DNA from: Candidatus Abzuiibacterium crystallinum
GTDB lineage: Bacteria; Omnitrophota; Omnitrophia; Omnitrophales; Abzuiibacteriaceae
NCBI GenBank assembly: GCA_002787155.1
Contig: PCVY01000066.1
Coordinates: 1 to 40,284, forward strand
Reading direction: 5' to 3'
Length of the DNA stretch: 40,284 bases
The notes below the pieces were generated by a model that had not been told where the DNA came from, made no database searches, and saw nothing but the letters and a program-made list of their open reading frames with translations. Made by a program: the position numbers and the translations under genes. Positions 1,060 to 38,536 of this stretch are shown here, one piece after another (the first letter of the stretch is position 1; each line of letters begins with the position of its first letter).

Positions 1060-3525
1060 ATGCGGCAAAAAACCAGATGGTTTATTTTAGTATGTGCCGT
1101 TTGTTCCGTGATGACATTCGGACCCGTACAAGTCCTGGGGTCAGACCCAGGAGGGTTTGACCCCCAAATTAGAGCCGGCTTTGCCAAAATAGACGTCACA
1201 CCGCCTATCGGTACGCCCCTTTCCGGCTACGGCAGAAGACACGGGGACCCCTCGAAAGGCATCAAAGACTTGCTTTATGCGAGAACCATCAGCCTCACCC
1301 AAAAGGGTGAAACATTTTATTTCGTCTCTTTTGATAATGTTCTTGTCGATGAGCATCTGAGGAACGTTGTTCTTCAAAAAGTGCGCCGTGAAATTGAAGT
1401 TCCGGACGACCATCTCGTTTTGGCAGCCACCCATACGCATTCCGGGAGCGGCGCCATCGGCGGCCGTTTTTGGCAGCGCTTTATCGGCGGCCGCTTCGAC
1501 CGAAAAGTTTTTGAAAAAACAACCGACTTGATTGCCGCCTCTGTGATCCAATCTTTTAAGAACCAAAGGACTGTTGCCGTTGAATACGGCGAGATTGACG
1601 CCGGTGATTTAACCGAAAATAGATTGGACGAAAACTTGCCGGCCTCCGCCTTACTTCGGGTGATCCGCTTCAAACACGGGAGTAACGTGCTGGGCCAATT
1701 GGTTTTCTTCGCAGCCCATCCGACGCTTTACTCGGCTGATAACCGCCATTTTTCGGCGGATTTTCCCGGTGTTCTAACTCGATTACTCGAAGAAAAATAT
1801 GCCAAAAGTACTTCCCTGTTTATCAATGGCGCTGCGGGCGATATTCGTCCGAGCGGCATTTATTCCGATTATCCGGAGAAACGAGTTGAGCGATATGGCC
1901 AAGTTCTGTTTGAAAAGGTGGAATCTATCCGTTTTAAACCACTCGCTTTGGAAGGGCCTTGGCAAGCCGAAATCATCCGCGTTAAATTGCCCGATACCAA
2001 AGTTGCCCGGTTTGTCCCGGCTATCTTAAGTAACCGTTTTTTACCGCGTCACGCTTATTTTCAAGTTGTGCGGCTAGGCAACATTGCCTTTATGGCATTG
2101 CCGGGTGAAATTGCCTCAGAAATCGGCCGCGAAATTGAAGCGCGTGCCGCCGGTAAGGGATTCCGGCTGTTTGTCATTGGTTTTGCCAACGATTACATCG
2201 GTTACGTCATCCCCGAGCGGTATTACCTTGACCGCTCGGAATATGAATCGCGCACCAGCCTGTATGGTCATCGTTTTGATTTTTTTGTACACCAAACCGT
2301 CGATCAATTATTGAATGCATTAGACAATCGATCTTCCCAGCACGAATCGGGTAAATTAATCATACAACAGGAACTGCCGGTTATTTTTGTACGCGGGAGT
2401 GATTACGAGATGGGTTACCAACAAGGCGAACTCATGCAAACTGAAATCCAGCAAGCCAAAAAGGAAATTTATCATTATTTGGCACACCGTGTCATCTATA
2501 TCCCCTTTTTCTCCGGCCTTATCTCGAAATGGATTCTCTCCCGCACCTGGAAAAAAATGGCGCCTTATGTTTCATACGGTGAATGGCAGGAATTGAAGGG
2601 TCTGGCAGACGGCACCGGGCTGAAAATGAAAGATGTCAAGCGGCTGCATGCCATTCCCGATTTAATTGAGCATCTATGTGCAAACGGCGTTTATTTTGAC
2701 CGAGCCACTCAAAGCCGGAGGTTGATTCATCTGCGAAATCTGGATTGGATCCGCGACATGGGTATTCAAGATTATGCTGCCCTGATTGTCTATCAGCCTG
2801 AGCGCGGCATTCCGTATGTGAATATCGGTTATTATGGCTTCGCAGGCGTCATTTCGGGTTTCAATGCGGAGGGCATTTCAGTCGGCCAAGTGGGGGCCGA
2901 TTCGATTGATGAAACTTTACGCGGTACTCCCATGCCTTTTTTGCTGAAACGTATTTTGCGTGAAGCAAATTCTTTAGAACGTGCCTCGGAAATCATTATT
3001 CATGCGCCGCGTACCAGTGCATTTAATTATGTATTCGGCGATGCCAAACACAAACAGGCGTTGGCCATTGAAACCACAGCGCATCATTACAAAATTTTTA
3101 CTGATAACGATCCGATGGAAATTGATTCCGGCTATGGATTGGCTGCCCAAAACATATTGGTACGGGCTGATACGGCATTTGACCCTGTTATTCGTAATTT
3201 GCAAACTGCTTCCAAAGGCAAGCCGGATCAACCGGGCTTAGAACCGCCTGCCGGCAGCGCATACGAAACACGTTATAAAAAGCAGGCTGAGCTGGCGCAA
3301 GCTGCCTATGGTGAACTGACGCCCGGGAAAGTGATTGAAATTGCGAAAGATATTGCACCGGATTCCAATGTACAAAGTGTGGTGTACGCTTTTCCTGATT
3401 TTTGGGTAGCAAACGCGACGGATGAATTACCGGCTGCCCGAACCGAATATAAACATTTTAATTATGATCAACTTGTTCTCCTGGGGTCAGACCCAAGCGG
3501 GTCTGACCCCACGCACACGTACTAA
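1060..3525 (+). CDS. Secreted neutral-ceramidase-like / C45 Ntn-hydrolase fusion
   Basis: This 821-residue exported protein joins two hydrolase domains. Residues 1-26 look like a Sec signal peptide. Residues about 36-430 resemble the N-terminal catalytic domain of neutral/alkaline ceramidases: AGFAKIDVTPPIGTPLSGYG opening, HTHSGSG (125-131) as a metal-ligand motif, AAHPTLY and NGAAGDIRP. These enzymes are Zn-dependent amidases acting on N-acyl sphingosine, but many bacterial relatives have unknown substrates. Residues about 440-800 resemble the C45 / acyl-CoA:6-aminopenicillanate acyltransferase family, with the expected RGSDYEMGYQQGE opening, a candidate nucleophile Cys540 (HLCANG) and RNLDW. 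Such Ntn hydrolases mature by self-cleavage before the Cys. Both ends of the reading frame run through REP-like palindromes encoding LGSDPxGxDP. The stop overlaps that of the convergent gene at 3522. Substrate is unknown. Confidence 0.8.
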   Translation: MRQKTRWFILVCAVCSVMTFGPVQVLGSDPGGFDPQIRAGFAKIDVTPPIGTPLSGYGRRHGDPSKGIKDLLYARTISLTQKGETFYFVSFDNVLVDEHLRNVVLQKVRREIEVPDDHLVLAATHTHSGSGAIGGRFWQRFIGGRFDRKVFEKTTDLIAASVIQSFKNQRTVAVEYGEIDAGDLTENRLDENLPASALLRVIRFKHGSNVLGQLVFFAAHPTLYSADNRHFSADFPGVLTRLLEEKYAKSTSLFINGAAGDIRPSGIYSDYPEKRVERYGQVLFEKVESIRFKPLALEGPWQAEIIRVKLPDTKVARFVPAILSNRFLPRHAYFQVVRLGNIAFMALPGEIASEIGREIEARAAGKGFRLFVIGFANDYIGYVIPERYYLDRSEYESRTSLYGHRFDFFVHQTVDQLLNALDNRSSQHESGKLIIQQELPVIFVRGSDYEMGYQQGELMQTEIQQAKKEIYHYLAHRVIYIPFFSGLISKWILSRTWKKMAPYVSYGEWQELKGLADGTGLKMKDVKRLHAIPDLIEHLCANGVYFDRATQSRRLIHLRNLDWIRDMGIQDYAALIVYQPERGIPYVNIGYYGFAGVISGFNAEGISVGQVGADSIDETLRGTPMPFLLKRILREANSLERASEIIIHAPRTSAFNYVFGDAKHKQALAIETTAHHYKIFTDNDPMEIDSGYGLAAQNILVRADTAFDPVIRNLQTASKGKPDQPGLEPPAGSAYETRYKKQAELAQAAYGELTPGKVIEIAKDIAPDSNVQSVVYAFPDFWVANATDELPAARTEYKHFNYDQLVLLGSDPSGSDPTHTY
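1136..1166. repeat. REP-like palindrome, copy 2, inside coding sequence
   Basis: TGGGGTCAGACCC (1136-1148) pairs imperfectly with GGGTTTGACCCCCA (1153-1166). It lies in frame just after the predicted signal peptide of the ceramidase-like protein and encodes LGSDPGGFDP. Its core is shared with the copies at 1009 and 3482. Confidence 0.7.
3482..3511. repeat. REP-like palindrome, copy 3, inside the 3' end of coding sequence
   Basis: Perfect 13-nt arms (TGGGGTCAGACCC at 3482-3494 and its complement at 3499-3511) with the loop AAGC. It encodes LGSDPSGSDP, nearly the last residues of the ceramidase-like protein, and sits 11 nt before the convergent overlapping stop codons at 3522-3525. It could double as a structure at the transcript end, but it has no T-run. 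Confidence 0.75.
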
Positions 3526-12681: not shown

Positions 12682-12991
12682 GCTTCGATTCAAAAGATTC
12701 TATCATTTTGTGAACGCCTACCGATTCAAACGCTTTTGAAACTTCCGGTTGAATGTTAATCACCCGAATATCACCGCGAAGCGATCTCACCTTTTGCAGC
12801 CTTTCAATCAAAATACACAAACCGGAGAAATCAACGTGCTTGGCCTTCGCCAAATCCAGTACAATGCGTCTGCGTTTTTGACCGATGAGCCTAGACAAGG
12901 TGTGCTTCAATCGAATCATGGTGTGAGCGTTTAAGTCACCATGACAAATGATCACGCTGATGTTTTTAGGTTGGTTCGATGTGAAGCTCAT
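12647..12991 (-). CDS. STAS-domain protein (anti-sigma factor antagonist-like)
   Basis: A 114-residue single STAS domain with the usual pattern: beta strand ISVIICHGDLNAHT, helix, strand RRIVLDLAKAKHVD, then the DFSGL turn (Asp54, Ser56), helix LCILIERLQK and strand DIRVINI. Ser56 corresponds to the serine that partner-switching kinases phosphorylate in SpoIIAA/RsbV proteins, so the site is kept. It is inserted between mraZ and rsmH, starts with a 4-nt ATGA overlap on mraZ and overlaps the rsmH start, so it is co-translated with division genes. No kinase or phosphatase partner lies in this window. It might instead serve a lipid-asymmetry (MlaB-like) or stress role. Confidence 0.8.
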   Translation of the reverse strand: MSFTSNQPKNISVIICHGDLNAHTMIRLKHTLSRLIGQKRRRIVLDLAKAKHVDFSGLCILIERLQKVRSLRGDIRVINIQPEVSKAFESVGVHKMIESFESKHEAIRSFQVVA

Positions 12992-13446
12992 TCATCCCTC
13001 CTTTTTTGTGGCGGTTCGATTAGCTGTTCGGCTAATGATTCAAATGACCCTAAATTATCGTTAAAAAATGTGTCCCACTTTTCCTTCGACCAAATTTCAA
13101 TACGATCAGAAACACCGATCACAACCACATCGGTTTTAATCTCCGCATATGATTTCAAATAAGTTGGAATCAGAATGCGGCCCTGCTTGTCACAAATCAC
13201 CTCAGATGCACCTGAAAAATAAAGACGGTTAAATTTACGTGATTCCTGTCTTGTAAAAGGAATGTGTTTGAACTTACGTTCCTGCTCGCGCCACTCTTCT
13301 TCCGGGAACATAAACAAACATCGGTCCAAACCGCGGGTGATGAAGAACTTTTCGGCATAGTTTTCCTTAAAGATTTCGCGGAACTTGGCCGGAATGATCA
13401 AGCGGTCTTTGTTATCGATTGCGTGTTGGTATTCCCCGTAAAACAT
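12988..13446 (-). CDS. mraZ: Transcriptional regulator MraZ
   Basis: MraZ is the DNA-binding repressor or activator at the head of dcw clusters and acts as a ring-shaped oligomer. The start is the ATG at 13446 (MFYGEYQHAID, 152 residues), preceded by GGAGG at good spacing. The open frame to 13470 has no ribosome-binding site. Two AbrB-like swapped-hairpin motifs are visible: AIDNKDRLIIPAKFR (first) and ICDKQGRILIPTYLK (second). The first has Asp where DxKGR is usual. A consensus promoter (13483-13511) and three exactly spaced MraZ-type boxes (13447-13472) precede it, so autoregulation is very likely. It overlaps the STAS gene by 4 nt. Confidence 0.95.
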   Translation of the reverse strand: MFYGEYQHAIDNKDRLIIPAKFREIFKENYAEKFFITRGLDRCLFMFPEEEWREQERKFKHIPFTRQESRKFNRLYFSGASEVICDKQGRILIPTYLKSYAEIKTDVVVIGVSDRIEIWSKEKWDTFFNDNLGSFESLAEQLIEPPQKRRDE

Positions 13447-13472
13447 CCACTTTCCTCCACTTATTACCACTT
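13447..13472 (-). promoter_or_regulatory. MraZ operator: three AAGTGG boxes at 10-nt spacing
   Basis: On the minus strand AAGTGG occurs at 13472-13467, 13462-13457 and 13452-13447, each start exactly 10 nt from the next, ending against the mraZ ATG and enclosing its GGAGG ribosome-binding site. Direct repeats of a GTGG/AAAGTG-type box about one helical turn apart are the known recognition pattern for MraZ proteins. The placement downstream of the -10 predicts repression by blocking transcription. Confidence 0.85.
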
Positions 13473-13712: not shown

Positions 13713-14435
13713 TTAAGAGGTATAGAGAATGCGGGAACATTGTTCACAGAGAACGATGTTTTCACCGATCTGAATTTCGTTAATTTGTTGAGCGCGCAAT
13801 TGCACATGACAGGCGGGACAAGCATCGTGGTCGCCTAACTTGACAAGCGCTAAGCCTTCCTTTTTTTCGACAATACGGTTATAGAGGCTGGCAATTTCTT
13901 TGTCGACTTCCTTAATTAATTGATCGCGTTCTTGCTTTAATTGCCCGATTTTTGACTTGGCTTCCGACACTCTTTGCTCAATCACTTTTTTCTTCTCGCC
14001 TGCTGCTTTTTCGATTTCTGCCATGCGTGCCTTTTCGGCATCTACTTGTTTGCGGCAAACATCAACGCGGTCAAAGAGTTCCAGAATACTTTCTTCCAAT
14101 AAAGAATTGTCGGCTTTTAATGAACGAATTTCTGATTGAAGCGAGGCATATTCTTGGTTGGTTTTGACTTGGGATAATTGCGCTTCGTATTTCTTAATGT
14201 TGGCCTCTTTTTCTTTGAGGTCCCCCTCTTTGTTCTTTTGGTCTAGCTGAGCTGCTTTGAGCGCTTCTTCGGCCTGACGGAGCGCGACGGTTTCGGCGTC
14301 TACCCCTTCCTGAATTTCCTTAATCTCGGCAGGCGCTTCCTCAATGATAAGGCGGAGAGAATAGATTTCGGAATCTACTTTCTGCACATGCTCTAAACGT
14401 TCTAAGTCTTTTTTCATGGGGACTGTGCTGCTCAT
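13713..14435 (-). CDS. Coiled-coil protein with C4 zinc ribbon (DUF/zf-RING_7 type)
   Basis: 240 residues: about 180 residues of long charged helices with heptad character (VDAETVALRQAEEALKAAQ, then EKARMAEIEKAAGEKKKV), then a C-terminal zinc ribbon with Cys206-x2-Cys209 and Cys230-x2-Cys233 (CPAC...CEQC). This matches the widespread bacterial C4-type zinc-ribbon proteins (PF02591). Their function is not settled, though a nucleic-acid or assembly role has been suggested. ATGs at 14435 and 14417 are both possible, and neither has a clear ribosome-binding site. It lies between the 193-residue unknown and mraZ, separated from mraZ by a 266-nt interval with its own promoter. Confidence 0.85.
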   Translation of the reverse strand: MSSTVPMKKDLERLEHVQKVDSEIYSLRLIIEEAPAEIKEIQEGVDAETVALRQAEEALKAAQLDQKNKEGDLKEKEANIKKYEAQLSQVKTNQEYASLQSEIRSLKADNSLLEESILELFDRVDVCRKQVDAEKARMAEIEKAAGEKKKVIEQRVSEAKSKIGQLKQERDQLIKEVDKEIASLYNRIVEKKEGLALVKLGDHDACPACHVQLRAQQINEIQIGENIVLCEQCSRILYTS

Positions 14436-14509: not shown

Positions 14510-15091
14510 TTAGGATGTAAAACTTTGCTCGGTGAACTTTTTAAGCTCTGCACTCAGCTGTTCGAATGCTGAAATTTCATCGTGACTTAAATGTTTTTCG
14601 ACTGCTGTCATTTGGCTTGTTGTCTCAGCACTCATCCCGCTCACCGGTAGATCCGGTTGCTGCATCGGAACTTCTTTAACTAAGACAGTTTCTTTACCGT
14701 TTGTTTCACTTAAGGTCCAACGGTGCGTTTGAACCGGCATCGTTAAAAAGCGAAGCTTGGAGAGAAAATTGCGGTCAAAATCGCGGGCAATGACGTGAAC
14801 ATGCAAGCGTGCGATAAACTCATCATCGCAAGAAGTATCGTGATCTAACACATCGGCAATCACATTTAAGACGCCCGGCAAATGATCTGCCGTGAGACGC
14901 TCGTGCGTCAGATACATGAGGTAACAACGATCCGATTCCCGCCATAAAGTAATCGAAAGCTGCGCGGGCGGTGTTTTTAAACGGGCAATAAAGCGATGGG
15001 CCGGAAAGATAAAAGAGGCGATTTGCTTTGCATATAAATCGTCTGCCGATGCTTCTTTCCAACTCGAGGTAAATGAAAAAGCAGAATTCAT
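14510..15091 (-). CDS. Hypothetical protein, third gene of the ParA group
   Basis: I do not recognise a family in these 193 residues. The sequence is soluble with no signal peptide. Residues 25-120 alternate hydrophobic and polar residues as in a beta-rich fold (ARLKTPPAQLSITLW, RCYLMYLTHERL, ARLHVHVIARDF). The tail (150-193) is Gln/Ser/Thr-rich and ends in an amphipathic helix (EISAFEQLSAELKKF). It overlaps the upstream MinD-like gene by 4 nt (ATGA) and so is probably made with it. It may be a partner of the ParA-CBM protein two genes up. Confidence 0.65.
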   Translation of the reverse strand: MNSAFSFTSSWKEASADDLYAKQIASFIFPAHRFIARLKTPPAQLSITLWRESDRCYLMYLTHERLTADHLPGVLNVIADVLDHDTSCDDEFIARLHVHVIARDFDRNFLSKLRFLTMPVQTHRWTLSETNGKETVLVKEVPMQQPDLPVSGMSAETTSQMTAVEKHLSHDEISAFEQLSAELKKFTEQSFTS

Positions 15092-15909
15092 ACCGTTTGC
15101 AGCATCAATTCTTCAGAAAGTAAATGAACTAGTTTGGCCTTCATGGGTTCGCGAATAAACTTGCCGCGTATGTCAGTCTCAAGCAGGAGCTCGTGATTCA
15201 TGCAAACTTGTTCTTTGTCAATCCACCCCAGAAAATCGACTTCACACCCTAAGAACTGCGACGAAATGCCGGCAAAACGTTCATAAACAATGGCAGCCAT
15301 TTCATCATTGAGAGCCCCTTCTACCATGAGTGAGAACTTGAGATTGGGATTTCGATGAACACAAAGACTTAAGTGCTGATAAGCGCTCATGAGACTATCC
15401 GCGGACGGCCCCCAAGCGCTCAGAATGACATGATCCAGCATCTCTAAGAGTTCCGGATGCCGTTCCAGAATGACTTTGGGCTCTAAGAAAAAACAGCAGC
15501 GCTTCTCCCCTTGAAATAACACGGGTGTTTCATGATGGTTTAATGGTTCCGGATGTAAAACATCCTGTAACTGAAAAGGCGGTAAAATCAGTTGTCTCAC
15601 ATTGTCAGGTACCGGGAGATCGCTCGTTCGGTTGGTTGAAAATGAAAGCAAATTTACCTGTTCAAAAACATGATGAAGCCCGCGTACAAAACCGGCATGG
15701 TTGAGAAGTCTTAATTGGCTGGTGTGCGGCAGAATCGTGAGACACTCCATGTGCCCCAGCATATCCGTCGAAATGGGTTCTTTTGTTTCAATATTCGCCT
15801 GAGGCACAGGAACCGATGTCAGCGCAGATTGAGACAACCCCGCTGCTGAAGCCATAAAGAAACTCGAAATGTCTTTTAACCCGCGCACAAGTCTTTTGCC
15901 GTCTTTCAT
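15088..15909 (-). CDS. MinD/FlhG-like protein without a P-loop (putative pseudo-ATPase)
   Basis: 273 residues. Residues about 159-235 follow the C-terminal half of MinD/FlhG ATPases: DHVILSAWGPSADSLMSAYQHLSL corresponds to the D-x-V-hhh-PE-x-x-hhDAY segment, NLKFSLMVEGALNDEMAA to the VVN segment, and FLGCEVDFLGWIDKE to the hLG-hhxxD segment. The N-terminus contains no GGxGKT Walker A, and the region where it should lie (1-40) is Ser/Ala-rich. So it may be a degenerate, non-hydrolysing relative of the adjacent ParA. This is pattern matching by eye. The start is well supported (AAGGAG 5 nt upstream of the ATG), 9 nt after the parA stop, and the 3' end overlaps the next gene by 4 nt. Confidence 0.55.
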   Translation of the reverse strand: MKDGKRLVRGLKDISSFFMASAAGLSQSALTSVPVPQANIETKEPISTDMLGHMECLTILPHTSQLRLLNHAGFVRGLHHVFEQVNLLSFSTNRTSDLPVPDNVRQLILPPFQLQDVLHPEPLNHHETPVLFQGEKRCCFFLEPKVILERHPELLEMLDHVILSAWGPSADSLMSAYQHLSLCVHRNPNLKFSLMVEGALNDEMAAIVYERFAGISSQFLGCEVDFLGWIDKEQVCMNHELLLETDIRGKFIREPMKAKLVHLLSEELMLQTV

Positions 15910-15918
15910 ACAAACTCC

Positions 15919-17172
15919 TTACTGAATTTCAATGACTGAATTAGAACCGCCGTAAGATGTGGGAACTTCTGATATGTTAGAAGGGTCTCTCACCCACTCC
16001 CCATCTACTAAAAACTTATAGCGATAAGTGCCCGGATCAACCGGAACGATTTTCTGCCAAAGATTTGATTCACTATCCACTTTGACCAAAGGTTCCGCAA
16101 TCCAGCGGTTGAAATCACCCGCAACCATTACTTCATTGGCTTGATCACTTCGAAACGAAAATAAAACACCGCCCAAAACAGGGTGCGGTGCCAAAGATAC
16201 AGGCGGTTCAATGGTGATGGCCGGGCTGACGGCAGGCATTTGGGGTTCGGAAGCAACGGCAATATTGGTTGATTCCTCCTCCGCCTGCGGCGAAGCATCT
16301 TCATGCTCAAATGAAAGCCCTAAAACCGAAAGCGCCTCATCTGCCGCAGATGTTGCTGCTGCCGGGATTGGCTCAACCTCCGAAATATCAATGATGCGCT
16401 CATGACGCACCATGCCGCGCTCAATCATTTCGATAGCGAGACTCATGTAATCTTGGAAGCCGGTTGAGTTGCGATCAAACTTCACAATGCTTTTCCCTGC
16501 TGCGGCTGCTTCTCTTAACCGCACGTTTTCGCGGATGTAGCTGGAAAATAATTGATCGTTGAAATGCCGCCGGACTTCTTCTTCGATTTCGCGGGTAAGT
16601 TTTGTGCGCTTCTCATAACGCGTGAGGAGAGCATGAATCTTAAATGTTTTATTGAATTCGCGTTTAATGCGATCGAGTGTTTCAAATATCTTGGCAAGAC
16701 CATGAAGCGAAAAAAACGACGGCTCAATGGGAATCATCACTTCATCGGATGCCCGAAGTGCGTTGTAAGTCAAAAGTCCTAAATTGGGCGGACAGTCTAT
16801 CACCACATAATCATAGGGCTGAGGCAATTGGTCTAATTGTTCGATCAGACGACGTTCTCTTCCGTCTGCCCCGGCCAATTCTTGCTCCGCAGCACTTAAA
16901 ACCACGTGCGATGGGATCAGGTGAAGATCTTGTTCAACGGACACCACAATATCGGAAATAGAGGTTTGATGGCCATTGCGGTGGAAAAGATCGTAAGCTG
17001 TTTTCGCGAGACCCTCGGCTTGAATGCCGAGACCGCAAGTCGAGTGTCCTTGGGGATCTAAATCGATTAATAAGACCTTTTTATGAAGGAAAGCTAAGGA
17101 GGCAGTCAGGTTGATTGCTGTTGTTGTCTTACCGCAACCACCCTTTTGATTGGCTACTGCAATAACGCGCAC
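15919..17172 (-). CDS. ParA/MinD-family ATPase fused to a glycogen-binding (AMPK1_CBM/CBM48) domain
   Basis: The start is the GTG at 17172 (417 residues, MRVIAVANQKGG), 6 nt after a perfect AGGAGG. The frame extends to 17214 without such support. Residues 1-255 form a ParA ATPase: deviant Walker A KGGCGKTT (10-17), LLIDLDPQGHST, DYVVIDCPPNLGLLT, and the C-terminal ALLTRYEKRTKLTREI region typical of Soj/ParA. A linker (about 256-329) rich in Ala, Glu, Ser and Pro follows. Residues 330-417 are a carbohydrate-binding module like AMPK-beta: VMVAGDFNRW, NLWQKIVPVDPGTYRYKFLVDG, EWVRDPSN, with the aromatic residues kept. ParA proteins position cargo on the nucleoid, and this one would plausibly position a polysaccharide body. 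No parB or parS is nearby. Confidence 0.85.
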   Translation of the reverse strand: MRVIAVANQKGGCGKTTTAINLTASLAFLHKKVLLIDLDPQGHSTCGLGIQAEGLAKTAYDLFHRNGHQTSISDIVVSVEQDLHLIPSHVVLSAAEQELAGADGRERRLIEQLDQLPQPYDYVVIDCPPNLGLLTYNALRASDEVMIPIEPSFFSLHGLAKIFETLDRIKREFNKTFKIHALLTRYEKRTKLTREIEEEVRRHFNDQLFSSYIRENVRLREAAAAGKSIVKFDRNSTGFQDYMSLAIEMIERGMVRHERIIDISEVEPIPAAATSAADEALSVLGLSFEHEDASPQAEEESTNIAVASEPQMPAVSPAITIEPPVSLAPHPVLGGVLFSFRSDQANEVMVAGDFNRWIAEPLVKVDSESNLWQKIVPVDPGTYRYKFLVDGEWVRDPSNISEVPTSYGGSNSVIEIQ

Positions 17173-24344: not shown

Positions 24345-25154
24345 TCAAGACAATTGCACATGCCGCCGCCTTTTCTCCTGAAGCTCAAGCAGAAAAGGGT
24401 CAATGATACGCTTTTTCTCAGTCGTCACACACAAGTACACACCGTCTTCTTCATTAAAGGCATAGTGAAAAGAACACGGCGAATAAAGATCTTCTTTGCG
24501 CACCACCCCGTTCTTCGCAAAATGTTTTCCATATACTTGATCTCGAAACCACTTACCTTCTCTATCGACAACCGCTGAGTTGTGAAAAAAACGCATTGAG
24601 GGGTAACGATTTTGCGATTTCAATTCAATGGTCTGAGCGGCAACTTCCAATTGAGGCATCAATCTATCCGGCATCCGCGTGATTTGCGTTGACGGCCGAA
24701 AAGCCGTGATGGGCCTGACAATGAGTCTGACAAAATCACCATAACTGGAAAGCAATTGATAGCGAATCAAAACTGTTTTTTGCCCCTCGATGATCATGAC
24801 GATTTTGAGAAACGCTAGATTTTCAACCCGGAAAATCCATGAGGGAAAAGGTTTTCGATAAAAATTTTCGATGCGGACATACCCATCAGGGAAAATACGT
24901 TCTTCATAGAGATGGGTGGATAATGGATAAGACCTGTCACCAATTAAAAGAGTTTCTTCCAAGCCCGATAGCAAAACCAAATGTTCGGTCCTGTGAGGCG
25001 CTTTGACAACCAACAAACCATGGTGCGGCTTGGTATTAGCCCCCAAGATAGACGCTGCCGCATAAGTGCCGTCTGTATTTGCCTCTTTCCATTCTTTATT
25101 GAGTGAAAGCGGCAACTGTTGGATGGTTTCTGAATTATAAACGCGGCTTCTCAT
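24345..25154 (-). CDS. Stand-alone glycogen-debranching-enzyme N-terminal domain protein
   Basis: 269 residues from the ATG at 25154 (a TTG at 25181 would add nine basic residues). The whole protein resembles the N-terminal domain of bacterial/archaeal amylo-alpha-1,6-glucosidases (GDE_N): EWKEANTDGTYAAASILGANTKPHHGLLVV (21-50, split motifs EW, TDGTYAA, NTKPHHGLL), LLSGLEETLLIG, and FYRKPFPSWIFRVEN. The C-terminal catalytic glucosidase domain is absent, and the frame ends in a clear stop with the rplU promoter about 60 nt further on. It may bind glucan without cleaving it or be a regulator. Its neighbours are unrelated housekeeping genes. The ParA-CBM gene 7 kb away is the only other glucan-linked gene here. 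Confidence 0.75.
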   Translation of the reverse strand: MRSRVYNSETIQQLPLSLNKEWKEANTDGTYAAASILGANTKPHHGLLVVKAPHRTEHLVLLSGLEETLLIGDRSYPLSTHLYEERIFPDGYVRIENFYRKPFPSWIFRVENLAFLKIVMIIEGQKTVLIRYQLLSSYGDFVRLIVRPITAFRPSTQITRMPDRLMPQLEVAAQTIELKSQNRYPSMRFFHNSAVVDREGKWFRDQVYGKHFAKNGVVRKEDLYSPCSFHYAFNEEDGVYLCVTTEKKRIIDPFLLELQEKRRRHVQLS

Positions 25155-25227
25155 TTTTTGTCTCTTCAACCTTATGTTCAATCATAACACCGGATGAACT
25201 TTTTACAAAATAGTTGAGTCAATGAAA

Positions 25228-30448: not shown

Positions 30449-33400
30449 TTAAGCGGCTTGAACAAGGCGTTCGTAAATTAAACCTTGCCGGTTCATCCCT
30501 TGCCAGAAAACTGCTTTCATTTCTTGGAGAGCAGCTTGAGAAACAACAACGACTTCATAGAAAAACTGCCGCCAAAGGTCATGGTCGTGTTGTTCTGCGG
30601 TTACCAAGATGGTCTGCAAAACGCCTTTGGCACGTAAGAGGGCTGCTGCTTCGCGGAGTCCCGTTGCCACGAGCATTTGATCAGTTTGATCAAGTTGCTC
30701 GTTTAAGACTTCTATCAACCGCTGTTCGGCAAGGGTTGGCGCAATCACTGCCGTCGGAATACCGGTCTTAGCAAATAGACCGAGCGCACCTTCATCAAAA
30801 GCGAGTGAACGTGCAATCACCAACCCCGGAGCACTCTCCTGGTAACCCGCCTCGGGTATGAGCGCTGTTTTAAGCTCGGAGCGAAACAGGTTCACACTTT
30901 CCATTCGGAGCATCCGACTCGTTTCTTGACGAAAAGCCTCAATTTGCGATTCGGCTTCCGGCGCTAAAGATGTTCTTAATTCAGAGCGAAAGTTATTCAC
31001 ATGTAATTCTTGCGTCGAAATAGTGAAAAAAGACGGTGCCGCTGCCGTCAACTCAACTGTAAATCCCTCCTCGGTGTTTTCTTGATTACGCAAGATAAGA
31101 GTTCTCTGCGTCTCTTCATCTTTTAAAATAATACCTCTGCCAACTTTAATCGATATGGTCGCATCTTCGAAAGGAGCTTGTTCGTCATCTTCTTTCAAAA
31201 TGGCTTTCTGAATATGGTCAGGCTGGATCACAAAACTGACTGTGAGTTTGTTTTTGCGTTTTGAATCACGCCAAGCACGCAAATGCAGCTTGAGGGCACG
31301 CTCACCGCCATCCGGATGAAAAAGAAGGACGATCGAAGCGCCTTCGCTCTGCACCAATATATGATCGTTTACTCTGCCGCCTTCAGGTACATCAGCGTTT
31401 GCTTCTACTTTGAGTGAAGGATCCGGAATCGCATATTGACGGCGTGTGATTTCAACGCGCACGTCATTCATCAAATCATCCAATTTTTGCACAAGCACTT
31501 GAACACCGTTAAGATTTTTTTGCTGAGCAGAAGAAGCCTCCAATCGTTTTAGTAAAACACTTGACGGATGAATTAATTCTTGAACATCCCTTTCAAATAA
31601 CACAAGCCCTTTTTGGTCCAATCCACGCCACTGAATTTCAGCGGCTACTTCCATGGCATTCTGAAAAACAATACGTGCATCATTAACAGCTTGAGCATCT
31701 TGCAAATAAAGTTGAAACAGAAACGTGTTATACAAGAACAGATATCGCAGCGATCTTTGAACACGTTCTTGATACTTATCATCCGTGGCCGTGGTATCAA
31801 TGGTTTTAATCTTTTTGTACGCTTCGCGCGCACGCGATAAAGCGCTGCGCATGACGGGTGCTGGATGAATATGGCGGCGCAAACTATAAGCTTTGGCTGC
31901 TAACTGCGTTTCATTAAGAAGCCGGTTTGGAATACCGCGGCGAATCACTCGTTGGCGAGGATGATGCCGAAAAGCTTGATCCAACCATTCAGACCACTCT
32001 GAAATAAGTTCCAGATCTTCAGGCTGAAGGTTGTATTCGCGTGATACAACAGCGGTTAACACATGTTCAATATCCGAAAGCAAATCACCTGAAGCGCTTT
32101 CCCAATAACCCTTCTGTTGCCGATGGGCTGAAGCGCGTTTCAAAATCCGCTTTAAAATTAAGTGTAAACTGTCGGCTCGTCTCAGATAAAGAGCAGCCCT
32201 CAAAGCACGCGCATCGACCGCAGTCTGATCCCAGATTGCGCTGATCGAAACCGGTTGATACTGAGCAATCAATTCAAGCAAATCATGTGCGGCTTCAGCC
32301 AAGCGATTTGAACTTTCTAGGTCATCTATGGAAACTGATACTTTTTGGGAACGTTTGTAATTCTCCGGAGAAGGCAGTGAATATAAAACCAAATCATTCA
32401 TGGTTCGGACCATTCGGTAAGCCAAAACTGCTTTTTCCCGATCTTTCATTTCACCCGGTACAATAATTTGTTTCCACAATTGATAAGCTTGCTCCGAAGC
32501 CCAACGGGCGCGGTCCCAATCCCCTCTTTTGCTGGAACGGCGCCGAATAGCAGAGTTCGTTAAGGCCGTCAGTCGGGAAACGATCCGTTCCGCATGATCA
32601 GACACAGCGGGAATCTGCCGGTTAAAATACTGTAACAATAGAATTTCATCTGCCAGCACCATTTCCCTCTCGTATAATTGAACATCTCTTAAGTATGAAT
32701 CAACCTTCTTGTTGAGATAAGCAAACGAGCGTTCGACTGCCGTCCTGATCTGCGGAACGCTTGCAAATGCATTCTCACTTTGATCTTGTGCAGCCATGGT
32801 TAATAAAATTTGCGTGATTGCATATTCACTGGTCGGTGTTTTTGGAACCGTCAGCAAAGAGCTTAGTAAATCCGCTAACTTCTCAAACTGCTTACCATTG
32901 CCGTTCAAACGAACTAAGATAGCAATCTTTCCTGCAGCCCATTGCGCCCATTGAGATGAAAGGTGAACCTGAAACATGGGTAGATATTCCAAGAATGTCA
33001 AAGCACCTTCTCGCTGAAGCTCCGCATCCTCTTGTTCGGTAAAAATCATAGCCAGAACTCCCAATGTGTAAGCCGCGCGAGGATCTTCAATATATCTCTT
33101 AGCTGCTTTCCTAATGCCTTGGACCGCTTGTTTTTGTTGATCATCCATTTGCCGATTTGCCAAAAGACTGTTTTTAATCCGCTGAAATTCCTCAAAAGCG
33201 ACATCAAAAGATTTTTGAAATTCGGTTTTGTCATTCCGCGGCGAATGTAAAAGTGTATATTCATCTTCGGCAAAAAAATGAATGACAACGTTTAAAATAC
33301 TTTTTGCACGATTAAGATCGACCACAAACGAATCTGTGCGATAAGCAAACCTCTGTCCGCCGTCCTCCGCAGGAAAACGGAGGCGGGGAAGCGCTCGCAG

Positions 33401-36400
33401 CACCTGCGTTAACTCCGGAACCAAATGATCAATATCCGTCATGGTGAGCGGTTGCTGCGGTGCATTCACGCCAATATAATCGATTGATTTGGCGGTGCCA
33501 TCTTGTAGCTCGACCGGTGGAATTAAAAGCGTTTTCGGATTGCCGCCGATGAACTGTTGATCATAATAATGATGATCGCCCACGCGGCCTTGTTCATCTC
33601 TAAGAGAAACACGCGACTCTATATCGCCTGCTCCTCCGTGATGGCGGAGCCCGATATCAACCGACTCGGGAATTTCCGGCTCTTCTTCATTAGCAAGAAA
33701 TCTCATCAAAACATGACGCGCCACCGCTTGAAGTGAACGGTTAACGGGTTCGACCGGCTGATGCAGATAAATCACCAAGTTCACAAACTCACCTTTTTCT
33801 TCCCACTCTAAACTAGCATCAAACAAATGAGCCGGATCAAGCCAGTTGATTTTCTTCTGGCCGTTTTCCAGTTGCAATAATAAATCTTCGACAAATTCAA
33901 CCGACTTTAACCGTTGCAGTGCTTCTTTAAAAGCTCCTGAATAAGTTAGTGCTAAATCCGGCGAAATGAGATGACGCGGCATATCACGGGCAGGACGAAT
34001 ATCCGCGTGTGCTATTTGATAATTACCGAAATCTGATAAAACGCCATCGAGAAAACCATTGTTTAATTCGAACGCATCGATGTCACGAGAGCCGCTGACA
34101 GCGCCGGGATCTTTGACTTGTGTGACAATTTGTTTTGGTCGAGATGCAAAATCCAGACGAACCCCCCACGGAATATGCTGCGGCGCTACCAGACGGTTAA
34201 TCACTTGTTCGGCAATGGTTTCTAATTGTGCGTGATCTTGAATATCAAGCGGGCGTAAATTCTGGCGTTGTTTAAAAGCTTCTAATAAATCAGGAAACTG
34301 TTCTTGTAAGGCGGCTATCAAATCGCTCACCTGCCGTCCTTTTAGACTGCTCACATCAAATAATTGCTTTAACTTTAACATGTTCTGAATGGATATAACC
34401 TTCAGAAGATGTGCCATGTCATCGGAAATCAGCAAATTATCCGTCAGAAAATAACCTCGGATAAATGCTTCAAAAGTAGCCTCTCCGTTTAATTGCAAAA
34501 AACCATGGAAATCATTAATTTTCTCAACCGGTATTTGATGTACAAACAAGTTAACGATCGATATAAAAAGAAAAGTAAAATCCCTGATACTCCAAAATAA
34601 AAACTCATCTTCCGACATACTGTCAGCTCGCCTGCCCGGTACAACCGAGGTGATTTGGATATGCCCGTCGCGGTCAATGTCGAAATCAGACAATTTGGGA
34701 TAAGTGTACACCCGACCCGAGTTATGTAAAGTTGACACCTCGATACCAAGCTGCCTAACGTCTTCGCCCAGTTGACTCATGGCTCTTTGAAGACGGCTTA
34801 ATTGCCTCACCTTAAAACGTGGCCCAGCTTGATTTCCCGCCTGCACTTTTTGAATTGATTGACGAAGCTGTCCTTTAAATTGGCTGCCAAATGAACGATG
34901 TGGGAAAGATGTTTGTGCTAAAATTAAAAACCCTTTGTCATCCCCGATGATTCCAAAGCCAACAGGCAGAACTGTCAGCTGCCCTTTATTAAACAACTCT
35001 CGCATAAATGAAAATGTATGCATGGCTTCTGCAGGCAGCCACCAAGGCGCCTTTGCGATGGGTTGTGTCACAATTTGACCATTCTGCACGTCGATACGGT
35101 GTCTGGGCTTTTGATAGGGGTCTGTGGCAGATTGATCTAAATACGGAACGGGTTCGGTAGGTTCTACAAAGTTCGGCGCAAATTGAATCGTCACTCGTCC
35201 AAGTGAAACACCGCCCACGTGCATCGTTTTTGACAAAGAATAGTCCTCATCTTTTGTTTGATTAACATCGTGGTTAACAACAGCCGCCAAAAGGCCTTCC
35301 AGGTCTGCTTGAGACAAACCGGCTGTCATAAATCTTGAATCCACTTCAAGGTGGACAGGTTCATGGTTTTTCGTTTCACCGGTAACCATGGCCATATGAG
35401 ATAGAATGGATTGCGGCGGGTTCTGTGCAGTTTGCGACCTGAGTTCCGCTCGTGTTTGATGCACGCTATCATTCGATTCTTGATTGATTTGCTGCTGAAG
35501 ATCGCGCAAGTTTGCAACTAAGTTTTGCGTGTGTAACTCATGCTCATCTTTGGGGCCATATTCTAATTCGTAAGATTCTGTCACAAGCCCTTGGGCTAAC
35601 GCTGTTTCAAGTAAATTGGCTAATTCGGTAGGCGTCGCATAATACGCACGCTCGAGTTCACGATATTTGTTACGATCAATATAAAAACGTTTTATCTCGT
35701 CCAACAAGGTCTGCGCACTTTCTTCTCCGAGCATTTTTAAAACTTGAAGGCCCAAATCTTGATTAGATTTCACCACCATGGTAAATAGACGTGTTAATTG
35801 ATAGTTATGCCCGCGCACATCTCCGGTATAGCCGTTTTGATGCGTATAATTGATCACATCAGCTAAAAACCTGACCATTTGCCCGGGATCTGTAAAATAT
35901 CGCAATGCCAAGTCACGAAAAATGAAACCGCCGCTTTTGTGGCGGTCTACGCCGTGCACAACTGCTTTCACCAACATTGGATATCGGTCTTTGGATGAAT
36001 GACTTTCCGATGAGGGGTATGACTTTTCAATCACACGTTTAAAAAAATAAAACTTCGCTTCGTCCAAACCCTTGTATTCAAATTCCCCGGTTAAGAGATC
36101 AAGTTTATCAAGCCCTTCTAATTCGGCAATATACTGTCCTAATTTGTCATGACGTGTCCACAATTCATAAGTAAAAGTTTCAACTGAAGTTTCGTGAATG
36201 AAACCCTCCACCACTCGATCTATCAATTCAAGCGGTATTTGGCGCTGAATGGGTACGCGCTCCGGGATCGCTTGCTTTTTGTCAGCAGAAATCACATCCC
36301 GCACGCCAATTAGCATAGGCACCTCTTTCCCATCCTGTCTGCGCACAACCTTTTTGGTGCGTTGAAAATCACCAAAATCTAAACGGTCTGATTCTTCGAC

Positions 36401-38536
36401 TTTCCAAAAATTTTTACCAATGCCGTAATGATCAGCAATAATCACGGGAACCTTTCCTTCCGCTTCAATAAGCCATGTCAGCACTTCGACTAACGGCGGG
36501 GATAGATATCGACGCCGCTGATGCAGTTTCATCAGGATAGATTGAATAAAAGTGGAAGGTATCACCCGAATACCGCCGGATTGATCAAGGATAACAGCCG
36601 TTTCGCCTGAAACCAGTCGATAGGTATTCCCATCACGTATCAAGAGTGCCTCACCATGCTCTAAATTAAATTGAACCCTATCCGGATCACGCAGGTTCTC
36701 AACCCTTTCTCCTCCTTCAAAACGGTCAAGGTCAACAATGGCAGGAATACCGTAGCGCAGCGCAATGCTTTGCGCATGATTGCCAAACTGTCGGCTTGCC
36801 ACAACGCCATTAACCAAACGAATAATTTCTTCGTGGTCAGCCGCAATGACCGGCCGCATGAAAATAACGGGCTTGCCCTTGTCATGTAAACGCTTAGCGT
36901 CTTCGTCGGTAAATGCAACGATTCCTACTTCGTTTCTCAAGACGCCGACCGAACGGCCTATCGCCGCTAACGGAGCTTCGCGTGGAAAACTCTCTTCAGA
37001 GATCGGCTCTTCTTTAAGAGGTTCTAAATTAAGATCGCGCAGGCGCTCGATTGCCTCATGTTTAGGAAGAATACCGCTGTTAACCATATCCACATAAGCA
37101 TTGATCATGGCTTCGGGTGATTTGCTGGCATTACGCACTTGAAGCAAGTAAAGTTCTCCTCGTTCAATGGTGAACTCGATAGATGCAATATCTCTGAAAT
37201 AAGTTTCTGCATCTTGTGCTAACATTTGAAGTTTTAGACTAAGCTGGGAGTTAATACGCTCTAAGAATTCATCAAATCCTTCCGCATCAAGTAAATCATC
37301 TCCTTGCATTTCAAAACCCACCGCTCCATCCCAGCCGTTTTTGCCGGTTTGAGGATTGCGGCTGAAAATATTGGCCGAGAGCGAATTGGGAAGATTCCCA
37401 AAAACCATGCGCTCTATCATAATACTATTGAACCGCATCGGGCCTTCCAAACCATGACGGTTTGCCGGTGCAATTGCCTGAATAGCCCACTCAAGCTGAA
37501 CAAAGGGATCTTGCGGAAACGGTCTGCCGAGTAATTCCTCAAAACGTTTTTTATATGCGCCGACGAACCATTCGGCTTTTTCAAGGCGTGACATCTCGCG
37601 GAAGTGGCGTTTGGAAGAATGTTGCTGATGCGGATAGAGCCTCTCAAGCTCGCGTATATTGTCGAATCGTTGGCGTGAAATGTCACCACCGTCGCTGCTA
37701 AGGGCCAAGTCACGAATCAACTTGGCATAGAGTTCCCATGCGGCGGCGGGATCGTTTAGTTTCGTGCTAAGCCGGCCAATGTTTTTGTCGGTAATACCCA
37801 CATTTAAAATCGTGAGGTAACGCCCGGGAAACGCGCGTAAATTGGCGGCACGCACTGAAACCAGCAAGGGATTTTCCGCATCGCCGAATTGTTCCGGTGT
37901 CATTTGATCAAAGTTTTTTTCTGCCAATTCAGCATTTTCTTCCGCCGTTAAGATTCCCAAATAATTAACTGCATCAAGCAGTTCCGCGCTGAAGTGTTTT
38001 AATAACGCGGGTTGCGTTATTATTCGTTCGACGGCTTCGAACGGCAAAGACAACCATTTCGGAACGCGAAAAATAATAGGATCTCGTTGAAACTGTCGGC
38101 TAAAGTCAGCTAAGTGAGCAGCTTTTGCTCCTACCCGGTTGATGTCTTCAATTTTAATGTCATCTGAAAAAATATAAAGCGGTGTGCTGGAAAATGGCAG
38201 CAAAGGACTGATGGGTGCTTTACTTTTCTCATTTATTCTCAACTCTGAGCGGCGTTTGGAAGCATGAGGGTTAACGAATGTGGTGATGTCTCTCAGCAGC
38301 GCGCTCGAAACGGTGGAGACCCCTTCGACAGGAACCGGCAGCCCCATGGCTTGGCTAATTTCCTTTCTGGTACTCAATGTATTCATGCTGACACGTGCGG
38401 CAGTGAGCGAATGTGCTGATACAGCTTGGATGTTATTTTCAGAACCAATAAATGGATAAGTGGTTGTGTTTGAAGAAGAAACGGTCAACACCAGGGTAAA
38501 CGACACGATTCTCATGAATAAGGATGGTTTCTTCAT
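30449..38536 (-). CDS. Giant exported protein with a PPDK-like N-terminal module
   Basis: 2,695 residues. The N-terminus (MKKPSLFMRIVSFTLVLTVSS) looks like a signal peptide or membrane anchor. Residues about 115-480 follow the ATP-grasp part of pyruvate phosphate dikinase (LLVSVRAANLRAFPGRYLTILNVG, FSRNPQTGKNGWDG, MQGDD, IEFTIERGELYLLQVRN), and about 515-605 follow its swivelling domain, with the phosphohistidine position kept as His587 (FGNHAQSIALRYGIPAI). The PEP/pyruvate barrel is absent and several ATP-site residues look changed (GE-F to GA-V). Later regions (about 1030-2500) are helical or mixed and I do not recognise them. Four RSELR-type tags occur at 96-100, about 1028, 2517 and 2552. 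It starts with a 4-nt overlap on the TIKI-like gene. Function unknown. Confidence 0.8.
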   Translation of the reverse strand: MKKPSLFMRIVSFTLVLTVSSSNTTTYPFIGSENNIQAVSAHSLTAARVSMNTLSTRKEISQAMGLPVPVEGVSTVSSALLRDITTFVNPHASKRRSELRINEKSKAPISPLLPFSSTPLYIFSDDIKIEDINRVGAKAAHLADFSRQFQRDPIIFRVPKWLSLPFEAVERIITQPALLKHFSAELLDAVNYLGILTAEENAELAEKNFDQMTPEQFGDAENPLLVSVRAANLRAFPGRYLTILNVGITDKNIGRLSTKLNDPAAAWELYAKLIRDLALSSDGGDISRQRFDNIRELERLYPHQQHSSKRHFREMSRLEKAEWFVGAYKKRFEELLGRPFPQDPFVQLEWAIQAIAPANRHGLEGPMRFNSIMIERMVFGNLPNSLSANIFSRNPQTGKNGWDGAVGFEMQGDDLLDAEGFDEFLERINSQLSLKLQMLAQDAETYFRDIASIEFTIERGELYLLQVRNASKSPEAMINAYVDMVNSGILPKHEAIERLRDLNLEPLKEEPISEESFPREAPLAAIGRSVGVLRNEVGIVAFTDEDAKRLHDKGKPVIFMRPVIAADHEEIIRLVNGVVASRQFGNHAQSIALRYGIPAIVDLDRFEGGERVENLRDPDRVQFNLEHGEALLIRDGNTYRLVSGETAVILDQSGGIRVIPSTFIQSILMKLHQRRRYLSPPLVEVLTWLIEAEGKVPVIIADHYGIGKNFWKVEESDRLDFGDFQRTKKVVRRQDGKEVPMLIGVRDVISADKKQAIPERVPIQRQIPLELIDRVVEGFIHETSVETFTYELWTRHDKLGQYIAELEGLDKLDLLTGEFEYKGLDEAKFYFFKRVIEKSYPSSESHSSKDRYPMLVKAVVHGVDRHKSGGFIFRDLALRYFTDPGQMVRFLADVINYTHQNGYTGDVRGHNYQLTRLFTMVVKSNQDLGLQVLKMLGEESAQTLLDEIKRFYIDRNKYRELERAYYATPTELANLLETALAQGLVTESYELEYGPKDEHELHTQNLVANLRDLQQQINQESNDSVHQTRAELRSQTAQNPPQSILSHMAMVTGETKNHEPVHLEVDSRFMTAGLSQADLEGLLAAVVNHDVNQTKDEDYSLSKTMHVGGVSLGRVTIQFAPNFVEPTEPVPYLDQSATDPYQKPRHRIDVQNGQIVTQPIAKAPWWLPAEAMHTFSFMRELFNKGQLTVLPVGFGIIGDDKGFLILAQTSFPHRSFGSQFKGQLRQSIQKVQAGNQAGPRFKVRQLSRLQRAMSQLGEDVRQLGIEVSTLHNSGRVYTYPKLSDFDIDRDGHIQITSVVPGRRADSMSEDEFLFWSIRDFTFLFISIVNLFVHQIPVEKINDFHGFLQLNGEATFEAFIRGYFLTDNLLISDDMAHLLKVISIQNMLKLKQLFDVSSLKGRQVSDLIAALQEQFPDLLEAFKQRQNLRPLDIQDHAQLETIAEQVINRLVAPQHIPWGVRLDFASRPKQIVTQVKDPGAVSGSRDIDAFELNNGFLDGVLSDFGNYQIAHADIRPARDMPRHLISPDLALTYSGAFKEALQRLKSVEFVEDLLLQLENGQKKINWLDPAHLFDASLEWEEKGEFVNLVIYLHQPVEPVNRSLQAVARHVLMRFLANEEEPEIPESVDIGLRHHGGAGDIESRVSLRDEQGRVGDHHYYDQQFIGGNPKTLLIPPVELQDGTAKSIDYIGVNAPQQPLTMTDIDHLVPELTQVLRALPRLRFPAEDGGQRFAYRTDSFVVDLNRAKSILNVVIHFFAEDEYTLLHSPRNDKTEFQKSFDVAFEEFQRIKNSLLANRQMDDQQKQAVQGIRKAAKRYIEDPRAAYTLGVLAMIFTEQEDAELQREGALTFLEYLPMFQVHLSSQWAQWAAGKIAILVRLNGNGKQFEKLADLLSSLLTVPKTPTSEYAITQILLTMAAQDQSENAFASVPQIRTAVERSFAYLNKKVDSYLRDVQLYEREMVLADEILLLQYFNRQIPAVSDHAERIVSRLTALTNSAIRRRSSKRGDWDRARWASEQAYQLWKQIIVPGEMKDREKAVLAYRMVRTMNDLVLYSLPSPENYKRSQKVSVSIDDLESSNRLAEAAHDLLELIAQYQPVSISAIWDQTAVDARALRAALYLRRADSLHLILKRILKRASAHRQQKGYWESASGDLLSDIEHVLTAVVSREYNLQPEDLELISEWSEWLDQAFRHHPRQRVIRRGIPNRLLNETQLAAKAYSLRRHIHPAPVMRSALSRAREAYKKIKTIDTTATDDKYQERVQRSLRYLFLYNTFLFQLYLQDAQAVNDARIVFQNAMEVAAEIQWRGLDQKGLVLFERDVQELIHPSSVLLKRLEASSAQQKNLNGVQVLVQKLDDLMNDVRVEITRRQYAIPDPSLKVEANADVPEGGRVNDHILVQSEGASIVLLFHPDGGERALKLHLRAWRDSKRKNKLTVSFVIQPDHIQKAILKEDDEQAPFEDATISIKVGRGIILKDEETQRTLILRNQENTEEGFTVELTAAAPSFFTISTQELHVNNFRSELRTSLAPEAESQIEAFRQETSRMLRMESVNLFRSELKTALIPEAGYQESAPGLVIARSLAFDEGALGLFAKTGIPTAVIAPTLAEQRLIEVLNEQLDQTDQMLVATGLREAAALLRAKGVLQTILVTAEQHDHDLWRQFFYEVVVVSQAALQEMKAVFWQGMNRQGLIYERLVQAA
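30869..30991 (-). repeat. Tandem FRSELR-type repeat near the giant protein's C-terminus
   Basis: Two copies encode FRSELRTSLAPEAESQ (FRSELR at 30974-30991) and FRSELKTALIPEAGYQ (FRSELK at 30869-30886), 35 residues apart. Related single tags in the same gene are RSELR at 38237-38251 and RAELR at 35440-35454. Confidence 0.8.

Follow-up and report, generated by a model that had tools for sequence, protein, structure and literature searches.

A conserved ParA-CBM48 fusion with an FlhG-like partner in Omnitrophota and other phyla: a possible module for positioning alpha-glucan

ParA-family ATPases are known to act on DNA, carboxysomes, chemoreceptors, flagella and division sites, and BcsQ is a ParA relative that serves cellulose synthesis. 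To our knowledge, whether bacteria actively place and share out their storage polymers is an open question. For ParB and PomX, the N-terminal peptide on its own is enough to activate the ATPase, and such peptides, which sit on unrelated scaffolds, bind by hydrophobic residues that flank a basic residue in the centre (PMC12462528, PMC7993993). A basic N-terminal segment was also proposed as the activator in McdB, the partner of McdA (PMC7993993). Here we describe a three-gene set in a stretch of 40,284 nucleotides (nt) from Candidatus Abzuiibacterium crystallinum (Omnitrophota; contig PCVY01000066.1, positions 1 to 40,284), which is called the window below. According to the reading of the open reading frames (ORFs), a ParA ATPase fused to a carbohydrate-binding module (ParA-CBM, P1) is followed on the minus strand by P2 and P3, with a 9-nt gap between P1 and P2 and a 4-nt overlap between P2 and P3. 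An earlier note, made from the window alone, had given this order and spacing and had stated that it knew of no such described system; the layout was confirmed, the operon was found to be conserved, and no account of a CBM-bearing ParA was found in the open-access literature (the search did not extend to subscription papers or preprints). The conserved N-terminal peptide of P2, which is shared across phyla, is newly described here. We propose, with confidence somewhat short of even, that the genes encode a ParA-type positioning module, in which the ATPase would hold alpha-glucan by its CBM and P2 would be the activating partner.

The P1 gene (15919..17172, minus strand) encodes 417 amino acids (aa) from a GTG start; a TTG start 14 codons upstream is possible, and the homologues begin with M-R-x-I-A. 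Its ATPase domain (residues 1-252, 16417..17172, minus strand) matched AAA_31 at 1.7e-57, above the curated threshold, and carries the signature KGGCGKT and DPQxH. The Walker A motif KGGCGKTT covers residues 10-17 (17122..17145, minus strand), and its K10 and K15 were invariant in 100/100 homologues. Together with D37, D39 and D126, these residues of Walker A, A' and B were invariant in 100-101 homologues, which identifies the deviant Walker A of the ParA/MinD group. An acidic, Pro/Ala-rich linker of about 80 residues, read from the sequence (residues 253-333, 16174..16416, minus strand), leads to an AMPK-beta-type CBM48 (residues 334-417, 15922..16173, minus strand). Residues 342-417 of this tail matched AMPK1_CBM (PF16561) at 3.4e-12, with 46.8 bits against a curated cut-off of 26.8, and CBM_48 (PF02922) at 1e-5, with 26.2 bits against 22.4, while solved AMPK-beta CBM structures matched it at about 2e-8. 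These results bear out the earlier description of an intact ParA joined by such a linker to an AMPK-beta-type CBM.

The fusion was then surveyed in other genomes. ParA matches were present in 76 of the 77 related genomes searched, and many of them were full-length fusions. A scan of named genome contigs gave 80 loci, and in nearly all of them the match covered the full protein; they were labelled Omnitrophota, Auribacterota, Planctomycetota, Desulfobacterota, Myxococcota, Rokubacteria, Eisenbacteria, Acidobacteria and Latescibacterota, with one labelled Pseudomonadota. The labels are metagenome-bin titles, so that single ones may err, but the overall spread is unlikely to. The ParA-CBM fusion is thus present in at least nine bacterial phyla, namely Omnitrophota and at least eight others. 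In a tree built from only the ATPase domain, the fused proteins formed one clade apart from the Soj/ParA proteins of Omnitrophota with support of 100/100. After ParAs from at least eight other genomes were added, the clade held at 100/99 and took in three CBM-less proteins (L175, L179 and L181, of which L175 and L179 have a common SQSNYSxMI tail); L182, also in the clade, has the CBM. KGGCGKT and DPQxH occurred in all 58 fused proteins of the first set. Among the Soj rows of Omnitrophota, 13 of 19 had KGGVGKT together with a final N and the remaining six shared the C/H signature, so the signature is typical of the clade and not exclusive to it. L180 (G145) and L182 (G159) are each a second ParA-CBM copy within one genome, with DPQSN or DPQGS in place of DPQxH. 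An accidental fusion or an artefact of assembly or frame is ruled out with near certainty, since the same open fusion occurs in dozens of independent genomes and in one clade; nothing that supports such an artefact was found. The earlier note had named three outcomes that would speak against it (no CBM48 match of the tail, a frame error confined to this genome, and a P2 unlike MinD); all three were examined and none was found.

The ligand contacts of the CBM were compared with those of AMPK. In sequences aligned by eye, W357, K386 and W393 correspond to W100, K126 and W133 of AMPK. In the AMPK beta-1 CBM, glycogen binding is abolished by W100G and by K126Q, and partly disrupted by W133L (PMC6274970). 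In the aligned set of 101 homologues, W357 was kept in 100/101 and W393 in 99/100, as expected from the earlier remark that the aromatic residues are kept. The other contact positions were also conserved: K or R at 386 in 96/100, Y or F at 407 in 87/97, and N or D at 411 in 100/101. Judged by these kept residues, the CBM looks functional.

P2 (15088..15909, minus strand, 273 aa) gave by itself no match in Pfam, NCBIfam or the PDB. An alignment of 36 family members, however, matched both FlhG (4.6e-17) and FleN (about 6e-12) in profile comparison. The AlphaFold model of P2 had a predicted local distance difference test (pLDDT) value of 83 and a predicted template modelling (pTM) score of 0.77, and its significant PDB fold matches were FlhG (the top match), FleN, ParF and MinD, with a Foldseek value of 1.1e-6 and a modest TM score of about 0.45. 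By profile and model, the MinD/FlhG-like fold spans residues 51-243 (15181..15759, minus strand) and has no P-loop. Walker A is absent from the window P2, and only L103 among 37 homologues keeps a Walker A-like sequence. Read from profile and model together, P2 is an FlhG/FleN-like protein without a functional Walker A, that is, a predicted pseudo-ATPase, which agrees with the MinD/FlhG-like partner lacking Walker A that had been recognized earlier. P2 is not a ParB, given that the Pfam search matched it to none of the ParB families (ParB_N/Srx domain). At locus L073, the P2 match sits directly downstream of ParA-CBM.

The start of P2 carries a short, basic-amphipathic peptide, RLVRGLKDISSFFMA (residues 6-20, 15850..15894, minus strand), with a predicted helix at residues 11-19, which we propose as a ParA-binding and activating motif. 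Its consensus is (K)LxRGLxDISxLFLS, and across phyla the gene after ParA-CBM starts with such a peptide, for example KLGRGLEDISHLFLS. A matrix was built from 27 of these sequences and used for a six-frame scan of 886 kb, in which matches above 16 bits were taken as strong. The scan returned 63 strong matches, and 61 of them lay on the strand of ParA-CBM, from just before its stop to 376 nt beyond it; for four of the 61 loci (L037, L046, L063 and L067) the position was taken from the match coordinates and not from a computed distance. Thirty-four of the 61 loci were outside the training set, some of them close kin of training sequences. Among the 80 named loci, the peptide was carried by 3/3 in Rokubacteria, 3/3 in Desulfobacterota, 3/4 in Eisenbacteria, 8/29 in Planctomycetota and 5/25 in Omnitrophota, and these counts are lower bounds because some contigs stop there and divergent copies are missed.

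The peptide was also compared with the N-termini of ParB proteins. The ParB of the same genome starts with MDPKKRVLGKGLSALIPDN, and a motif of the LG[KR]GLxxL type was common to all 23 ParBs of relatives. With a smoothed ParB matrix, 19 of 50 P2s exceeded the 95th percentile of unrelated N-termini, where 2.5 were expected, and 10 of 50 exceeded the 99th, where 0.5 were expected. In the window P2, the segment that best fits the ParB matrix is not the peptide. On these scores the likeness to ParB appears real for the P2s that bear LGRGL and weak for the window P2, and homology to the ParB motif is unproven. On the side of the ATPase, Y81, E82 and E117 of M. xanthus ParA, the proposed receivers of the ParB arginine, correspond to Y60, D61 and E96 of P1 when a constant offset of 21 is applied. 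Y60 was found in 85/101 homologues, D61 in 66/101 with N or E in 31 more, and E96 in 95/101. From these kept receiver residues, together with the ParB and PomX precedents, we infer that P2 may activate the ParA.

The third gene, P3 (14510..15091, minus strand, 193 aa), is also conserved. Profile comparison showed homology between P3 of the window type and the third genes found in other phyla (94%, E 9.4e-8), and a C-terminal helix is conserved. The P3 model (pLDDT 87) had EndoMS/NucS as its top fold match (8.8e-5, TM score about 0.40), and the sole PDB match of the P3 profile was NucS, weakly, at E 0.04. By eye, the catalytic D...ExK is not kept, as the lysine is missing in the family alignments and the aspartate is missing in the window P3 as well. 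According to the model, P3 probably has a NucS/EndoMS-like PD-(D/E)XK fold and is inactive; nuclease activity is unlikely since the E-x-K signature is not kept. The partner genes were found in other arrangements. Planctomycetota appear, by eye, to have a single protein with the peptide, a MinD-like part and a P3-like part, which would be a P2-P3 fusion. Rokubacteria, Acidobacteria and one Desulfobacterota locus have the peptide fused straight to a P3-like domain, which indicates that the MinD-like body is dispensable and the peptide less so.

In the working model, ParA-CBM would dimerise on ATP and bind the nucleoid, as the ParA family does, while its C-terminal CBM48 would grip an alpha-glucan, most likely glycogen. 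P2 would present an ATPase-activating peptide at the N-terminus of its FlhG-like pseudo-ATPase body and would work with P3, a putative dead nuclease-like scaffold, so that P2 and P3 would trigger hydrolysis and release. Along the nucleoid, glucan particles would then be tethered, moved or distributed, like carboxysomes by McdA/McdB. The broader proposal, that polysaccharide storage bodies have a widespread partition machine of their own, made of a glucan-binding ParA, a pseudo-ATPase adaptor and a hydrolysis-triggering N-terminal peptide, is put forward still more tentatively. The module also suggests an alternative role, in which stored sugar polymers would serve as a landmark in the cell.

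In some members of the family, genes of alpha-glucan metabolism lie close to the fusion. The genome of the window has GlgA and a phosphorylase. Within Omnitrophota, GlgA (PF08323) was present in 134/145 genomes and AMPK1_CBM, fused or not, in 124/145; 9 of the 11 genomes without GlgA were also without AMPK1_CBM, and since they fall mostly in four families they represent few independent events. Among 16 fusion-bearing genomes of other groups, whose completeness is not given except for the whole chromosome CP070806.1, GlgA was strong (E <1e-60) in 8, GlgB was above the cut-off in 7, and phosphorylase matches, mostly weak or partial, were found in 14. Seven Omnitrophota loci, which are close relatives and represent one or few events, have a GH57 gene at the second position upstream of ParA-CBM, and L040 has another GH57 gene 3.8 kb downstream. 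These GH57 neighbours would fit a module that gathers or localises glucan-metabolising enzymes and not the polymer, as BcsQ does in cellulose synthesis, and ParA-CBM does match the BcsQ family, a match that most ParAs would share. No single enzyme, however, is conservedly adjacent across phyla, and we regard enzyme recruitment as very unlikely. In the window itself, a stand-alone ORF for the N-terminal domain of glycogen debranching enzyme (GDE_N, 2.8e-43) lies at 24345-25181 on the minus strand, 7 kb from ParA-CBM, and the catalytic C-terminal domain is not adjacent to it. By coordinates, stand-alone AMPK1_CBM/CBM48 genes were also seen directly beside glycogen synthase in many relatives (G013:C116, G026:C95, G020:C75 and others).

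Several observations count against glucan positioning with P2 as the activating partner. The association of GlgA with the CBM is confounded by phylogeny. In about half of the 16 genomes a clear GlgA or a GlgB was not seen, in two no phosphorylase was seen, and in one none of the three was seen. The complete Phycisphaerales chromosome CP070806.1 has the fusion, weak GlgA and GlgB matches only, and no detected P2. In Phycisphaerae without P2 at the locus, the P2 searches elsewhere gave mostly FlhG-sized MinD matches, and none in the complete chromosome. The likeness to ParB is one-directional, as the P2 model picks 1 of 23 ParBs. In other Omnitrophota, the neighbour of ParA-CBM is a membrane protein and not P2. 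The fusion genomes without clear GlgA/GlgB rule out a universal linkage to glycogen synthase. Because of them and of the chromosome in which no P2 was detected, the positioning of glycogen, as the earlier note had supposed it, may not apply to every member of the family.

The genomes with the fusion but no clear GlgA/GlgB, one of them a complete chromosome, would be expected if the CBM48 worked off storage glucan, with another glycan or a protein (e.g. P2, P3 or a membrane complex) as its ligand and a different cargo. The membrane-anchored neighbour with its exported jelly-roll-like domain points the same way. Across ten or so phyla, however, the two stacking tryptophans and the position of K or R are near-invariant, which is difficult to account for unless a sugar is bound, and alpha-glucan phosphorylase-like matches occur in 14 of the 16 genomes; we consider a different ligand unlikely. 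The membrane protein itself (L074:4396-4977 and similar) is encoded upstream of ParA-CBM in 16 Omnitrophota loci. It is single-pass, with a conserved short cytoplasmic N-terminus (e.g. YEHLAxIYLD) and a likely exported jelly-roll domain, and might be an alternative partner. Its N-terminus resembles the P2 peptide by eye, but it is not taken as the same motif, because no more than 1 of the 16 exceeded the 95th percentile of the null. A small lysine-rich protein with a barrel like EF-Tu domain 2 or the U32 C-terminus was observed after ParA-CBM in 14 Omnitrophota loci (L074:6094-6480 and homologues).

The neighbourhood of the operon in the window consists largely of housekeeping genes, which were named by sequence reading where no family search was made. 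Downstream of P3 are a CT398/CdsZ-like zinc-ribbon coiled-coil gene, identified by family search (13713..14435, minus strand), then mraZ (12988-13470) and the dcw cluster, in the order mraZ-mraW-ftsL-ftsI; upstream are two CNNM transporters, nadD, proA, proB and obg. The CdsZ-like gene followed by mraZ is found in the same order in L034, L035 and L090. The adjoining division genes, together with the regulation of AMPK by glycogen binding (PMC6274970), are consistent with a glycogen sensor, in which glucan on the CBM would control the ATPase and the carbon reserve would gate chromosome segregation or division with no transport. Yet the association with the dcw cluster is limited to this order and the neighbours differ in other phyla, and a dedicated partner with an activator-like peptide better suits a full ATPase cycle, so that we give this explanation a low probability. 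Two further ORFs of the window were recorded. One of 2695 aa (30449-38536, minus strand) has RSELR-type repeats, an N-terminus of export-like character and no more than a partial match to PPDK_N, and the other (1060-3525, plus strand) joins a neutral ceramidase N-domain to an acyl-transferase (AAT) domain.

If glucan positioning is correct, stored carbohydrate joins the known ParA cargos, and an FlhG-like fold lost its ATPase and became the partner of another ParA, with an activating peptide that moved between scaffolds. A ParA with a built-in glucan-binding domain and a conserved partner in many phyla makes the placement of storage polymers directly testable.

Compared with known systems, the module resembles McdA/McdB in pairing a ParA-family ATPase with a dedicated partner that does not bind DNA and that has a basic segment, the proposed activator, at its N-terminus. 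It differs in that the ligand-binding domain, a CBM48, is on the ATPase itself and in that P2 is FlhG-like, a predicted pseudo-ATPase; no Pfam match linked P2 to McdB. With ParABS (ParA/Soj and ParB/Spo0J) it shares the ATPase fold, largely kept receivers of the ParB arginine and, in some P2s, an LGRGL-type core at the partner's N-terminus. Unlike ParABS, ParA-CBM forms a separate clade with KGGCGKT/DPQxH, where most Soj proteins have KGGVGKT/DPQxN, P2 has no ParB domain, and the genome has a separate ParAB. The P2 body resembles the MinD-like FlhG/FleN in its profile and best structural matches, but it lacks Walker A, has another N-terminus and is tied to ParA-CBM and not to flagella. P3 has a probable NucS/EndoMS-like fold and a weak sequence match to NucS, but does not keep the E-x-K. 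The CBM belongs to the family of the AMPK beta subunit and has its stacking tryptophans, but here it is joined to a bacterial ParA and not to a kinase complex.

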